Origin: Dehalococcoidia bacterium
Lineage (GTDB): Bacteria > Chloroflexota > Dehalococcoidia > SM23-28-2 > RBG-16-64-32
Assembly: GCA_030690405.1 (NCBI GenBank)
Contig: JAUYGU010000050.1
Location: 1-53,300, forward strand
Direction of reading: 5' to 3'
Length of the DNA: 53,300 nucleotides
Shown: in pieces, positions 42,089 to 45,943 of the stretch
Layout of the letters: the number at the start of each line of letters is the position of its first letter
Numbering within the stretch: position 1 is the stretch's first letter
Notes under the pieces: generated by a model
What the model saw: only the letters and a program-made list of their open reading frames with translations
Told to the model about the DNA's origin: nothing
The model's database searches: none
Position numbers and translations under genes: made by a program

Positions 42089-42127
42089 GGGTTGCGGCTG
42101 CGGGCCGCATCTAACCGGGAGGACTTG

Positions 42128-42901
42128 ATGGCGCGAGCGCAGGCTGTCCCACCGCCGCACAGGCTAGGCTTCCTGGCTACCCTCCGCACCGACGCCTGGT
42201 GGATAGAGCCGGTGGTGACGGCAGTCAGCCTGCTCATCTTCTTCGGCTGGCTCGGCGTCAGCGTCTTCCTGGACAGGTGGGGCTTCGAGGCCGGGCCCTA
42301 CATCTCGCCCGTCTTCGAACCCAAGCTCTTCGAAGCAAACAACAGCATCTTCATCAGCCCCGCGCTCGTCGTCCTCCTGGGCCCAATCCCCTTCCGCGCC
42401 ACCTGCTACTACTACCGCCGCGCGTACTACCGGTCGTGGTTCATGTCCCCGCCGGCCTGCGCCGTCGGTGACGCCGGCCGCACGTACAAGGGCGAGACGG
42501 CTATCCCTTTCTGGTTCAACAACCTGCACCGCTTCGCTATGTATGGCGCGCTGGTCTTCGTGCCCATTCTCTGGTGGGGCGCCATCCGCAGCTTCTACCA
42601 CGATGGAGAGATCGGCATCGGCCTCGGCTCTCTCATCCTGGTCGTCAACGCCTACCTGCTGATGATGTACACGTTCTCCTGCCACTCGCTGCGCCACTGG
42701 GTCGGCGGAGGGCTGAACTGCTTCAGCTGCTCCGCCGTGACGCGCGCCCGCAAGCGGGTGTGGGACTACGTCTCGCTGTGGAACGTGAACCACCGCCTGT
42801 TTGCCTGGTCCAGTCTGATCTGGATCGTCTTCACGGATGTCTACATCCGGCTGGTGGCGAACGGCCATATCACGGACCCGAACACCTGGAGCGGCTTCTA
42901 G
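42128..42901 (+). CDS. sdhC: Succinate dehydrogenase membrane anchor (large actinobacterial-type SdhC)
   Basis: A 257-residue membrane protein with about five hydrophobic segments, encoded directly before sdhA. It carries CYYYRRAYYRSWFMSPPACAV, followed by Y-K-G-E-T and NNLHRFAMYGALVFVPILWW, a pattern I recognise from the large single membrane subunit of actinobacterial succinate dehydrogenases. It should anchor SdhAB and bind quinone and heme; candidate heme ligands are His in NLHRF and CHSLRHW. ATG 42128 follows GGAGG. The stop TAG begins a heptad-repeat array that runs to the sdhA start. Confidence 0.8.
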   Translation: MARAQAVPPPHRLGFLATLRTDAWWIEPVVTAVSLLIFFGWLGVSVFLDRWGFEAGPYISPVFEPKLFEANNSIFISPALVVLLGPIPFRATCYYYRRAYYRSWFMSPPACAVGDAGRTYKGETAIPFWFNNLHRFAMYGALVFVPILWWGAIRSFYHDGEIGIGLGSLILVVNAYLLMMYTFSCHSLRHWVGGGLNCFSCSAVTRARKRVWDYVSLWNVNHRLFAWSSLIWIVFTDVYIRLVANGHITDPNTWSGF

Positions 42902-42936
42902 TGAACAGTGGACGGTGGGCGGTGAGCAGTGCCTGA
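42902..42936 (+). repeat. Array of GTGRACA-like heptads supplying the sdhA start codon
   Basis: Five 7-bp units follow in register: GTGAACA, GTGGACG, GTGGGCG, GTGAGCA, GTGCCTG. The last unit contains the sdhA GTG start. The same heptad family borders the four-helix-bundle gene 1.8 kb downstream. Confidence 0.75.
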
Positions 42937-44725
42937 GTACGAGACACACGAGTTCGACGTAGTCGTCATCGGGGCGGGAGGCGCCGGGCTGCGTGCTGCC
43001 ATCGAGGCCTCCGCCCAGGGGGCGCGCACCGCCCTCGTCTGCAAGTCGCTGCTCGGCAAGGCGCACACGGTGATGGCGGAGGGGGGCATCGCCGCCGCCC
43101 TGGGCCACATCTACGCGGAGGACAACTGGCAGGTCCACTTCCGCGACACGATGCGCGGCGGCAAGATGCTCAACAACTGGCGGATGGCCGAACTCCACGC
43201 CCAGGAGGCGCCCGAAAGGGTCTTCGAGCTGGAGACCTGGGGCGCCCTCTTCGACCGCACGAAGGACGGCCGCATCTCCCAGCGCCCCTTCGGCGGCCAC
43301 CGCTACGACCGCCTCGCCCACGTCGGCGACCGCACCGGCCTGGAGATGATCCGCACGCTCCAGCAGCACGCCGTGCACAAGGGGATCGAAGTGTTCATGG
43401 AGTGCACCATCTCCCGCCTCCTGAAGGACGGAGATCGTATCGCCGGCGCCCTCGGCTACTGGCGGGAGACGGGCAACCTGATCCTGTTCAAGGCGAAGGC
43501 GGTGGTGCTGGCCACCGGCGGCGTCGGCAAGGCCTTCAAGATCACCTCCAACTCTTGGGAGTACACCGGCGATGGCCACTCCCTGGCCTACTGGGCCGGC
43601 GCTGACCTCATCGACATGGAGTTCTTCCAGTTCCACCCCACGGGGATGGTCTGGCCGCCCAGCGTGCGCGGCATCCTGGTCACCGAAGGCGTGCGCGGAG
43701 ACGGCGGCACGCTCAAGAACTCCGAGGGCGAGCGGTTCATGTTCAAGTACATACCGGAGTTCTTCAAGGCAGAGACCGCGGACACGGAGGAAGAGGCGGA
43801 TCGCTGGTTCCAGGACAAGCTGAACAACCGCCGCACGCCCGACCTCCTGCCCCGCGACGAGGTGGCGCGGGCGATCAACACCGAGACCAAGGCCGGACGC
43901 GGTAGCCCGCACGGCGGCGTCTACCTCGACATCGCTTCGCGGCAGCCGGCAGACTACATCAAGCGGCGGCTGCCGAGCATGTACCACCAGTTCAAGAAGC
44001 TGGCCGATGTTGACATAACGACGACACCCATGGAGGTCGGCCCGACGGCGCACTACATGATGGGGGGCGTCAGGGTCGATGCTGACACGGCTGCCTCCAC
44101 CGTCCGCGGCCTGTTCGCCGCCGGCGAGTGCGCGGGCGGTATGCACGGCGCCAACCGCCTGGGCGGCAACTCGCTGTCCGACCTCGTGGTGTTCGGCCGC
44201 AGGGCCGGCCTGGGGGCGGCGGAGTACGTGAAGGGGCTCTCGGCCGCGCCCGCCGTGAACCCGGCCGAGGCAGACGGGTACGCGGCGGAGATGATGGCGC
44301 ACTTCGAGCGTAGCGGTGGGGAGAACCCGTACCAGGTGCAGCAGGAGCTCCAGGATACGATGCAGAGCCTCGTGGGCATCATCCGCACGCAGTCGGAGCT
44401 GGAGGAGGCGGTGGAGAAGGTCCAGGCGTACAAGGAGCGGGCGAAGCGGACGGGGGTGGAGGGGAATCGCCAGTATAACCCGGGCTGGCACCTGGCGATG
44501 GACCTGCGCTCACTGCTCACCGTGTCCGAAGCGATGGCCCGGGCGGCGCTGGAGCGCAAGGAGAGCCGCGGCGCCCACACCAGGGACGACTACCCGACCA
44601 CGAGCGCCGACTTCGGCGGCGTGAACGTCGTCATCCGCCGGGGCCCGGACGGCGCGCCGCAGGTCTCCCAGGAGCCGCTGCCCCAGATGCCGGCGGAGCT
44701 GAAGTCGCTGTTCGAGGAGAAGTGA
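42929..44725 (+). CDS. sdhA: Succinate dehydrogenase flavoprotein subunit
   Basis: SdhA oxidises succinate to fumarate at a covalently bound FAD on the cytoplasmic side. The 598 residues show the dinucleotide fold GAGGAG (15-20), the FAD-attachment histidine in KAHTVMAEGG (His46), HRYDRLAHVGDRTG, FFQFHPTGM, the active-site GILVTEGVRGDGG, HYMMGGVRVD, and GANRLGGNSLSDLVVFGRRAG. The only start that keeps the N-terminus is the GTG at 42929, since a stop precedes it in frame; this codon lies within the heptad array. The stop overlaps the GTG of the inserted four-helix-bundle gene. Confidence 0.97.
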   Translation: MPEYETHEFDVVVIGAGGAGLRAAIEASAQGARTALVCKSLLGKAHTVMAEGGIAAALGHIYAEDNWQVHFRDTMRGGKMLNNWRMAELHAQEAPERVFELETWGALFDRTKDGRISQRPFGGHRYDRLAHVGDRTGLEMIRTLQQHAVHKGIEVFMECTISRLLKDGDRIAGALGYWRETGNLILFKAKAVVLATGGVGKAFKITSNSWEYTGDGHSLAYWAGADLIDMEFFQFHPTGMVWPPSVRGILVTEGVRGDGGTLKNSEGERFMFKYIPEFFKAETADTEEEADRWFQDKLNNRRTPDLLPRDEVARAINTETKAGRGSPHGGVYLDIASRQPADYIKRRLPSMYHQFKKLADVDITTTPMEVGPTAHYMMGGVRVDADTAASTVRGLFAAGECAGGMHGANRLGGNSLSDLVVFGRRAGLGAAEYVKGLSAAPAVNPAEADGYAAEMMAHFERSGGENPYQVQQELQDTMQSLVGIIRTQSELEEAVEKVQAYKERAKRTGVEGNRQYNPGWHLAMDLRSLLTVSEAMARAALERKESRGAHTRDDYPTTSADFGGVNVVIRRGPDGAPQVSQEPLPQMPAELKSLFEEK

Positions 44726-45150
44726 CTGGAATAGTGGACAGTGAACAGTTGACAGTGGATAGAGCTGTCGGAGTCACCAAGGTTCGGTCTCATCGCGATC
44801 TACTCGTGTGGCAGAAGGCGATGGACCTGGTTGATATGGTCTACGACCTGGCTGAACATTTCCCGGCTAGGGAGGGCTTTGGGCTGACCAGTCAGATAAC
44901 GCGGGCCGCGGTGTCCGTACCCGCGAACATCGCGGAAGGGCAAGCGCGGTCCACGGCGAAGGACTTCGCGAACTTCCTCGCGATAGCCAGGGGCTCTTTG
45001 ATGGAGACGGAAACTCTGCTTACGGTGGCGGTTCGAAGGGGGTACGTTCCGGAGACCGCCGCCGGTTCGACGTACTCGCTCATCACTGAGGTCAGCAAAA
45101 TGCTGACTTCGCTCAGGCGCCAGATCGCAGCGAAAGGGCGGAGAGCGTGA
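44722..45150 (+). CDS. Four-helix-bundle protein (23S rRNA intervening-sequence / S23 family)
   Basis: A 142-residue protein of the four-helix-bundle family first seen inside 23S rRNA intervening sequences. The core SHRDLLVWQKAMDLVDMVYDLAEHFP, FGLTSQITRAAVSVPANIAEGQAR, FANFLAIARGSLMETETLL and SKMLTSLRRQI matches the family from about residue 24 onward. The first 14-20 residues are encoded by the left heptad array, so a later start (TTG 44749 or GTG 44755) is also possible. The GTG at 44722 overlaps the sdhA stop. It separates sdhA from sdhB and is bounded by inverted heptad arrays, the mark of an inserted element. Its biochemical role is unknown. Confidence 0.85.
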   Translation: MTGIVDSEQLTVDRAVGVTKVRSHRDLLVWQKAMDLVDMVYDLAEHFPAREGFGLTSQITRAAVSVPANIAEGQARSTAKDFANFLAIARGSLMETETLLTVAVRRGYVPETAAGSTYSLITEVSKMLTSLRRQIAAKGRRA

Positions 45151-45184
45151 CGCCGCTGTTCACTGTCCACTATCAACTGTCCAC
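44731..45184. mobile_element. Candidate element: four-helix-bundle gene between inverted heptad arrays
   Basis: Left array 44734-44761 reads GTGGACA, GTGAACA, GTTGACA, GTGGATA. Right array, read on the minus strand from 45184 to 45157, reads GTGGACA, GTTGATA, GTGGACA, GTGAACA. Within these, 44731-44748 and 45156-45173 form a perfect 18-bp inverted repeat. The segment encloses only the four-helix-bundle gene and interrupts sdhA-sdhB. No transposase is encoded, so any movement would need outside help; 'mobile' is an inference. Confidence 0.6.
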
Positions 45185-45202: not shown

Positions 45203-45943
45203 GTGGCGGAGGTAACGATGCGCGTGTTCCGCGGCGACGCCTCCGGCGGCTCCTTCGTCGATTACGTGGTCGACGTGGAGGAGGGCCAGGTCGTTCTCGA
45301 CGTGATCCACCGCATCCAGGCCACCCAGGCGAACGACCTCGCTGTCCGCTGGAACTGCAAGGCGGGCAAGTGCGGCTCCTGCAGCGCCGAGGTCGATGGC
45401 AAGCCCTGCCTCATGTGCATGACCCGCATGAACGCCTTCGAGCCCGGAAAGCCCATCAGCGTCGCCCCCATCAAGGCGTTCCCCCTCATCAAGGACCTGG
45501 TGACGGACGTCTCTTTCAACTTCGAGGTCGCCAAGAAGATCCCGGCCTTCCAGGGGCCGCCGCAGCCGGAGGGCGGCCACCGCATCCAGCAGATGGACGT
45601 CGACCGCGGGCAGGAGTTCCGCAAGTGCATCGAGTGCTTCCTCTGCCAGAACGTCTGCCACGTGATCCGCGATCACCCGGAGAACAAGGCGGACTTCTTC
45701 GGCCCGCGCTGCCTGGTGCGGCTGGCGGTGCTGGAGATGCACCCGCTGGACTCCGTCGACCGCACGGAGCTGATCCGAAAGGCGGCGGGCATCGGCTACT
45801 GCAACATCACGAAGTGTTGCACGGAGGTCTGTCCGGAGGACATCCACATCACGGACAACGCCATCATCCCGCTGAAGGAGCGCGTCGCCGACCGCTACTA
45901 CGACCCGGTCCGCTGGGTCCTGCGCAAGATCAGCGGTAAGTAG
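45203..45943 (+). CDS. sdhB: Succinate dehydrogenase iron-sulfur subunit
   Basis: SdhB passes electrons from FAD to quinone through three clusters. The 246 residues have the [2Fe-2S] cysteines 52, 57, 60 and 72 (CKAGKCGSC...C), the [4Fe-4S] set C142-x2-C145-x2-C148-x3-C152, and the third set around C200, C205/206 and C210-P. FFGPRCLVRLAVLEMHPLDSVDR resembles actinobacterial SdhB, in line with the SdhC type. GTG 45203 follows GGGGAGG. It lies 18 bases after the right heptad array, so transcription from the sdh promoter must pass through the inserted gene. It converges with fumB eight bases away. Confidence 0.95.
   Translation: MAEVTMRVFRGDASGGSFVDYVVDVEEGQVVLDVIHRIQATQANDLAVRWNCKAGKCGSCSAEVDGKPCLMCMTRMNAFEPGKPISVAPIKAFPLIKDLVTDVSFNFEVAKKIPAFQGPPQPEGGHRIQQMDVDRGQEFRKCIECFLCQNVCHVIRDHPENKADFFGPRCLVRLAVLEMHPLDSVDRTELIRKAAGIGYCNITKCCTEVCPEDIHITDNAIIPLKERVADRYYDPVRWVLRKISGK

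Follow-up and report, generated by a model that had tools for sequence, protein, structure and literature searches.

A 454-bp element with inverted heptad arrays and an S23/IVP gene between sdhA and sdhB, probably one of a widespread family of very short mobile elements

In the Dehalococcoidia bacterium studied here, sdhA and sdhB are separated by a 454-bp element in which inverted tandem arrays of 7-bp units enclose a single gene for an S23/IVP (i.e. four-helix-bundle) protein. This element probably belongs to a widespread family of mobile elements of very small size, in which the intervening sequences (IVSs) of rRNA would be the members inserted into rRNA. The layout recurs with different 7-base units in many bacterial phyla and hence looks like a family of small mobile elements that has been overlooked. 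Judged from sequence comparisons, mobility of the family is very probable, the evidence being the architecture, the agreement between the arms of an element, the purifying selection to which the protein is subject, copies that lack the gene and differences in presence or absence between relatives.

The following features were located in the window (i.e. the whole 53.3-kb stretch of DNA that was analysed), with the evidence for each given in brackets.

44731..45184, plus strand: whole element, inverted heptad arrays and IVP gene, 454 bp (sequence, doublet count against shuffles, inverted-repeat search)
44734..44761, plus strand: left array, four 7-bp units of GTGRACA type (sequence; doublets against shuffles)
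45157..45184, minus strand: right array, four 7-bp units, inverted with respect to the left array (sequence; doublets against shuffles)
44731..44748, no strand: left arm of a perfect 18-bp inverted repeat (partner 45156-45173)
45156..45173, no strand: right arm of the perfect 18-bp inverted repeat (partner 44731-44748)
44722..45150, plus strand: IVP gene (S23/four-helix-bundle protein), 142 aa, GTG start (PF05635, TIGR02436, 2GSC fold)
42900..42931, plus strand: solo heptad array without a gene, at the putative sdhC/sdhA junction (array scan and the junctions of relatives)
42929..44725, plus strand: sdhA (succinate dehydrogenase flavoprotein), upstream host gene (PF00890 and PF02910)
45203..45943, plus strand: sdhB (iron-sulphur subunit), downstream host gene (PF13085 and PF13183)
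42092..42901, plus strand: putative sdhC (position and conservation only; no Pfam match)

Each array contains four heptads and the two arrays are in opposite orientations, as the earlier note had read them. The left units are GTGGACA, GTGAACA, GTTGACA and GTGGATA and the right units, on the minus strand, are GTGGACA, GTTGATA, GTGGACA and GTGAACA, with two of four and three of four, respectively, being exact fits to GTGRACA. The perfect 18-bp inverted repeat, also correctly described in that note, is accompanied by a 38-nt pairing with 76% complementarity (44732-44769/45149-45186). Doublets of GTGRACA with up to two mismatches were observed seven times in the window as compared to 0.74 expected, and none of 100 shuffles reached seven. 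When 464 nt were folded as RNA, the arrays formed the terminal stem and the energy was -212.6 kcal/mol as compared to -176.6 kcal/mol for shuffles (z = -5.8), none of 100 shuffled sequences being as low. A search of Rfam produced a single match, far under its gathering score, and a search with PADLOC produced none. A solo array of the GTGRACA type, absent from the earlier list of features, was detected between putative sdhC and sdhA. No further heptad array emerged from scans of the 53.3-kb window for lag-7 arrays scoring ≥10 and for triplets of GTGRACA. The lag-7 scores of the element's own arrays are just 8 and 8, so that arrays of other units could escape these scans if weak. The GTG start of the IVP gene at 44722 overlaps the sdhA stop through a GTGA motif, and a GGGAGG motif lies ahead of the sdhB start, such that the window copy looks settled in its operon. 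Putative sdhC has 63-64% identity to the ORFs found upstream of the IVP gene in locus L001 and upstream of sdhA in locus L003.

The gene between sdhA and sdhB, both assigned by Pfam, was confirmed as a four-helix-bundle gene by matches to PF05635 (i.e. 23S_rRNA_IVP; E 1.7e-38) and TIGR02436 (i.e. four helix bundle protein; E 1.3e-36). A predicted model of the protein had a mean pLDDT of 87.2; the array-encoded N-terminal residues 1-18 had a pLDDT of <50 and were predicted to be disordered, so that the actual start codon may be situated further inside the gene. Structurally, this model was matched best by 2GSC (TM (target) 0.94), a structure released in 2006, and 2RLD also matched. Weaker fold matches at ranks 11-18 were to Avd, the DGR accessory protein (4DWL), and a DGR RNP (8UBB), with TM (target) values of 0.80-0.86 and a Foldseek probability of 1.00 but E values of 0.01-0.08. 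The IVP protein is thus like Avd in having a four-helix fold and a weak profile similarity, and is unlike Avd in scoring under both curated cut-offs, with 25.4 bits (E 2.2e-5) against a cut-off of 40 for PF22296 and 26.1 bits against a cut-off of 80 for NF033474. Values of dN/dS were 0.03-0.17 in 13 of the 17 IVP pairs computed, several of them with high dS, and the other four pairs were saturated; from these ratios the protein is evidently under purifying selection. Sixteen columns were invariant in an alignment of 26 IVP proteins, and many of these residues are polar (e.g. Q58, R61, N69, E72, R76, S92, E95 and T98). To our knowledge, no catalytic activity is known for the IVP family and no function for the 'four helix bundle protein' family. 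A passage of PMC10053308 notes that PF05635 resembles Avd, and the Xanthomonas IVP structure is given as a pentamer in a passage of PMC4990558.

A genome search with the IVP protein yielded 62 loci with varied organism names. Scanning of these loci without a preset unit detected period-7 arrays beside over half of the IVP genes, with a unit that varied by locus. GTGRACA itself, which the earlier note had put forward as the signature of the family, was rejected in this role as its doublets (two mismatches) were present in 10 of the 62 loci and were not always next to the gene. The signature is a period of 7 combined with ends that match in inverted orientation, the unit itself differing from one element to another.

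The architecture was quantified for a larger, phylogenetically non-independent set of 144 non-redundant IVP genes with both flanks, using a lag-score threshold of 12. Lag 7 reached this threshold in 57 left and 58 right flanks, on both sides of 36 genes and on either side of 79, as compared to 0-6 of 144 for the other lags between 4 and 13; lag 14, a harmonic of 7, reached it in 42 and 45, and lag-7 control windows from the same loci did so in 3 of 576. The left flank matched the reverse-complemented right flank for 105 of 144 genes, as against 14 of 144 in direct orientation and 7 of 430 for mispaired loci. In a rerun with 145 similarly non-independent genes, 80 had a clear array of period 7 on one side or both, 106 had matching inverted ends and 119 had one or both features, with 26 having neither at threshold. 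Dinucleotide-shuffled flanks for these 145 genes gave none with arrays and one with matching inverted ends. The window element was counted via its inverted flanks (score 18), its lag-7 scores of 8 and 8 being under the threshold. A Chloroflexota subset, drawn by Pfam family with one locus per genome, exhibited a feature in 23 of 29 cases, and inverted heptads were present on both sides of seven of eight IVP genes on cyanobacterial plasmids (8 of 35 matched records), two of these seven being one region on two plasmids. The phage records searched gave no match. Element length had a median of 467 bp (range 300-672) among 55 relatives with both arrays readable, and gene-less elements were about 84-193 bp in length. 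The unit length of the arrays is not absolutely fixed at 7: lag 8 was observed in L051 and L263, and lags 5 and 6 in L040 and L029, replacing or adjoining 7.

Variation of the unit was examined in 84 elements with a clear array, both arms being readable in 51. The two arms had a unit in common in 39 of these 51 elements as compared to 115 of 2550 cross-element pairs, for which the mean unit similarity was 0.52. Identity of the unit at the two ends enables the transcript, or DNA in single-stranded form, to form a single long stem between its termini. Sharing of the unit was observed in 92% of 26 pairs with protein identities of ≥70%, at least one of which looks like one locus fetched twice, in 23% of 84 pairs with identities of 60-70% and in 2-5% of 3376 pairs with identities of <60%; the overall rank correlation between protein and unit was weak (rho 0.145, with 0.179 as the largest value in 1000 permutations). 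None of 36 within-genome pairs from two multi-copy genomes (i.e. G044 and G080) had the same unit as compared to 4 of 55 pairs between three genomes, and a TATTCGA subfamily was present in all three (L126, L148 and L154), indicating that the unit tracks the element lineage and not the genome. On these sequence comparisons, the unit goes with the protein subfamily.

Filled and empty sites were then compared for the sdh operon. An sdhB-like match was present in 132 of 151 Chloroflexota genomes and the 30 best loci were taken, one of which (L160), being from the genome of L002, was set apart. The earlier note had allowed that all relatives might carry the gene at this position, and this was not observed: all 29 other Chloroflexota loci (L161-L189; from the best 30 of 132) had sdhA upstream and no IVP gene before sdhB, and the gap between sdhA and sdhB in 20 printed empty junctions ranged from a 14-nt overlap to 76 nt. 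The filled sites were those of the window, L002 and L003. In comparison to the window, the IVP proteins of L002 and L003 are 67-69% identical and sdhA and sdhB are 75-76% identical, and the unit is AGGTGTT as opposed to GTGRACA. These filled sites would go back either to one old insertion whose two arms changed in concert or to more than one insertion at this position. The copy in the window, L002 and L003 may be a single old insertion that was vertically inherited and, with this being possible, the sdhA/sdhB copy gives no sign of recent movement. The putative sdhC/sdhA junction is empty in L003, contains the solo array in the window and contains an array plus an IVP gene in L001. From about position 2250 onwards, the L001 contig (binned as Acidobacteria) runs from Chloroflexota-like sdhC-IVP sequence into unrelated sequence inside the IVP gene. 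This contig is a probable assembly chimera at a repeated element, and L001 was left out as evidence on the right end because of this change to unrelated sequence within the gene.

Several copies at unrelated sites, together with empty sites, were found in relatives from Caulobacter and Verrucomicrobia. Two Caulobacter loci (L005 and L038) were 77% alike over 464 nt with the alignment ending near the arrays, and two copies in one Verrucomicrobia genome (L029 and L040) were 85% alike over 408 nt; flanks did not align in either comparison. An IVP gene was present in 2 of 41 Caulobacter-genus genomes. Matches to AGTAGGG arrays were obtained in at least 3 of these 41 (i.e. both IVP carriers and G194), a search in which eight candidate regions per genome were scored for one unit, so that arrays may also be present in other Caulobacter genomes. 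The sequence fetched for an array match in G194 (G194:C12; L223) contained no lag-7 array. A different G194 site carries an element (L237) and, despite this element, no IVP gene was found in G194.

In the gene-less elements of G005 and G191, inverted AGTAGGG arrays enclose a short core. One group of related cores comprises L210, L212, L213 and L215, the cores of L212 and L215 (63-67 nt) being nearly identical in opposite orientations with a score of 61 as compared to ≤12 in 100 shuffles, and L211, L214, L219, L220 and L221 form a looser second core group. An array-free orthologous site was present in congeners for 10 of 13 gene-less sites, L211 and two sites of L216 being ambiguous and left out of the 10. 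A relative aligned across eight sites (L210, L212, L213, L214, L215, L217, L218 and L220) with no more than about 45 nt of other sequence; at the L219 site the relative has different stem-loop DNA, and the left flank of the L221 site aligned poorly. The L218 site has the element in G191, an AGTAGGG element of its own in G005 and is empty in G177. In G194, the L215 site is occupied by the L237 element, which has the unit TAGGGRC in both arms as compared to AGTAGGG in L215. Homology between the cores of L237 and L215, first assumed by eye, received no support from alignment against shuffles. At the gene-bearing L222 site, the gene is absent in three relatives, which have other stem-loop DNA there (L377, L378 and L389); gene ends may act as hot spots that elements of several kinds have in common. 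Inspection by eye of the alignments of filled and empty sites revealed no target-site duplication, the flanks of these sites being 68-97% alike such that short duplications could be missed. Insertion into a pre-existing small hairpin loop, in the manner of rRNA tetraloops, was rejected by eye as a general rule, with L387 having a hairpin beside the site and others having none; the array-free sites L235, L230 and L243 could be drawn by eye as small hairpins. The view that the gene and its heptad ends constitute a defined unit, which had been advanced from the window alone, is supported by the architecture across phyla, by alignments restricted to the element, by the empty sdhA/sdhB sites and by the array-free counterparts of gene-less sites.

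Examples of insertion between other genes included ruvA/ruvB (L023), cas6/cas4 (L258) and cas10/cmr3 (L263). The last two are on cyanobacterial plasmids and lie inside cas operons, L258 (1998-2366) having an IVP gene with inverted heptads and L263 (1504-1860) an IVP gene with inverted repeats of about 8 bp. Two plasmids of Calothrix brevissima NIES-22 (L259 and L260) have the same integrase-IVP region, with inverted AGGGTGT heptads flanking IVP.

An alternative explanation, which we regard as unlikely, is that the element is an immobile cassette for mRNA processing or regulation. An RNase III-cut stem would separate the sdhA and sdhB mRNAs or control IVP, and the spread of the layout would be due to ordinary gene transfer; in one variant, for example, the IVP ring would bind the heptads as a TRAP-like autoregulator. 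The strong terminal stem in the RNA fold is consistent with such a cassette, as is the excision of the Coxiella IVS by RNase III that is described in a passage of PMC4990558. Elements are also co-directional with, and placed behind, same-strand ORFs, the left array being at the stop of the upstream ORF in 65 of 73 cases as compared to 250 of 1460 random positions, an imperfect control that favours the arrays as these themselves contain stop codons. Immobility is harder to reconcile with gene-less copies that have a common core in both orientations and with array-free sites and element-only homology, all of which are traces of a mobile unit. A cassette role is compatible with mobility, and both could hold.

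A second alternative, which appears distinctly unlikely, is that an unrelated host or phage recombinase acts on the hairpins and that IVP is a passenger benefiting the host. RAYT or IS200-type TnpA act on REP hairpins in this manner. Such an enzyme would account for the element of G194, in which no IVP gene was detected, and for the cores of the gene-less elements, which by eye do not resemble internal deletions of the gene-bearing element. The distribution in Caulobacter, where the genomes with array matches (at least 3 of 41) include both IVP carriers, argues against a passenger, and the low similarity of units between elements leaves a sequence-specific enzyme with no common sequence.

Gene-less arrays were common in some genomes. 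For G044, 400 kb were scanned in stretches chosen partly to include IVP genes (eight found), and 2 of 17 lag-7 arrays were within 150 bp of an IVP gene; at a stricter threshold, 14 arrays were retained for lag 7 and 0-1 for the other lags tested. Head-to-head heptad palindromes with almost no spacer, and without gene or core, were observed in L280 (7083-7127) and L334 (19389-19435). Lag-7 arrays in Chloroflexota numbered 11 per 400 kb in IVP-bearing genomes as compared to 1 per 400 kb in IVP-free genomes (20 stretches each), an association only, as lags 6 and 12 were commoner in the IVP-free set (10 and 9 versus 0 and 3) and the two sets thus differ in lineage and composition. The earlier note had asked whether heptads might occur genome-wide with no enrichment next to these genes: this holds in half, gene-less arrays being common in genomes that have IVP genes and just 2 of the 17 G044 arrays lying close to such a gene. 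That the arrays are host short tandem repeats grown by slippage, with functionally unlinked IVP genes merely captured, would fit the 15 of 17 G044 arrays lying >150 bp from an IVP gene and the heptad repeats of Xanthomonas, Nostoc and Beggiatoaceae, for which passages of PMC4692102 and PMC4679880 note no IVP link, but is improbable given that units differ between the IVP loci of one genome, agree at both ends of a locus and travel with the protein subfamily across genomes (i.e. TATTCGA), and that lag-7 arrays are more frequent in IVP-bearing Chloroflexota.

The window element resembles the 23S rRNA IVSs of Coxiella burnetii and Leptospira in having an S23p/PF05635 ORF within a long terminal inverted-repeat stem. 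Intervening sequences of rRNA have been known since about 1990. In Coxiella, the IVS is 428 nt (454 here) and contains an S23p ORF, a terminal stem of 28 bp and, upstream of S23p, tandem GACAGAT heptamers whose copy number varies by strain, according to a passage of PMC4990558. The tandem heptamers next to the ORF are a further likeness, although the unit there is GACAGAT and here GTGRACA. The same source places rRNA IVSs in 23S rRNA helices and describes them as parasites of 16S/23S rRNA genes, unlike the window element, which is between sdhA and sdhB and not in a 16S/23S rRNA helix. In layout, the Coxiella IVS has the anatomy of the window element, set in rRNA. BLAST of E. coli 23S rRNA against the fetched loci matched no IVP locus, the single match being L186, an sdhB locus.

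Similarities to other repeat systems were also apparent. MITEs and REP/REPIN elements are short and lack genes, have inverted ends, occur dispersed in intergenic DNA and are presumed to be moved in trans. The present elements share inverted terminal repeats and short gene-less copies with these, and differ in that their ends are variable tandem 7-mers and not a fixed terminal repeat and that no target duplication was seen. The STRR of cyanobacteria are heptanucleotide tandem repeats, and hence similar in having tandem 7-bp units; they are known as tandem repeats, and a link to an IVP gene is undescribed in the literature found. Heptanucleotide repeats of Calothrix are mentioned in a passage of PMC4692102. 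This source also describes GGGAATC heptads in two Xanthomonas species, with 70 and 75 convergent inverted pairs that are mostly intergenic and at a mean distance of 28 nt from the next 5' ORF, the prominent repeats being at different genes in each species. A heptad-bearing species also encodes an IVP protein, XCC0516 (i.e. 2GSC), in common with the present case; the passage of PMC4692102 on these heptads differs in mentioning no IVP link. A pattern search for the Xanthomonas heptads found the pattern in 0 of 229 genomes. For DGRs, a passage of PMC10053308 lists the parts as RT, template repeat, variable repeat and Avd, with heptad termini unmentioned. Among the matches listed in a search of open-licence literature, there was no published link of heptad arrays with the PF05635 family outside rRNA and no published test of IVP-dependent movement.

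Returning to the favoured explanation of a mobile element family, the ends would be the inverted tandem 7-bp arrays and the sole gene that of the S23/IVP protein with its Avd-related fold. A transcript or single strand would fold on the arrays, and the IVP ring (i.e. a pentamer) would hold the folded heptad stem. Acting in cis and in trans, IVP would help host enzymes to copy both the element that encodes it and gene-less elements to new sites, possibly through an RNA intermediate and a host reverse transcriptase, as Avd does with its RT. Binding of the stem by the pentamer and its promotion of copying, possibly via RNA, are put forward tentatively. The simplest explanation for ends that stay alike while the unit drifts would be that one arm templates the other in the folded stem. 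Elements often lie immediately after stop codons within operons, and the 23S rRNA IVSs would be those that landed in rRNA.

A wider interpretation is a real possibility, though one held short of conviction. The elements could be transposable elements of a new class, one that spans bacterial phyla and has ends with no fixed sequence. Each lineage would have its own 7-bp unit, tandemly repeated and mirrored at the two ends, with the arms kept identical while the unit drifts. The Avd-fold protein of each element would recognise the structure of the ends and would also mobilise gene-less copies; rRNA IVSs and many unexplained heptad repeats would be the members and debris of this class. The appearance of '23S rRNA IVP' in a list of CRISPR-associated proteins (a passage of PMC10910872) may partly reflect insertion into cas operons, as in L258 and L263. 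The family offers a testable protein-repeat pair, and would join three loose ends, namely the origin and function of rRNA IVSs, the role of the 'four helix bundle protein' and the excess of 7-bp repeats in bacteria.
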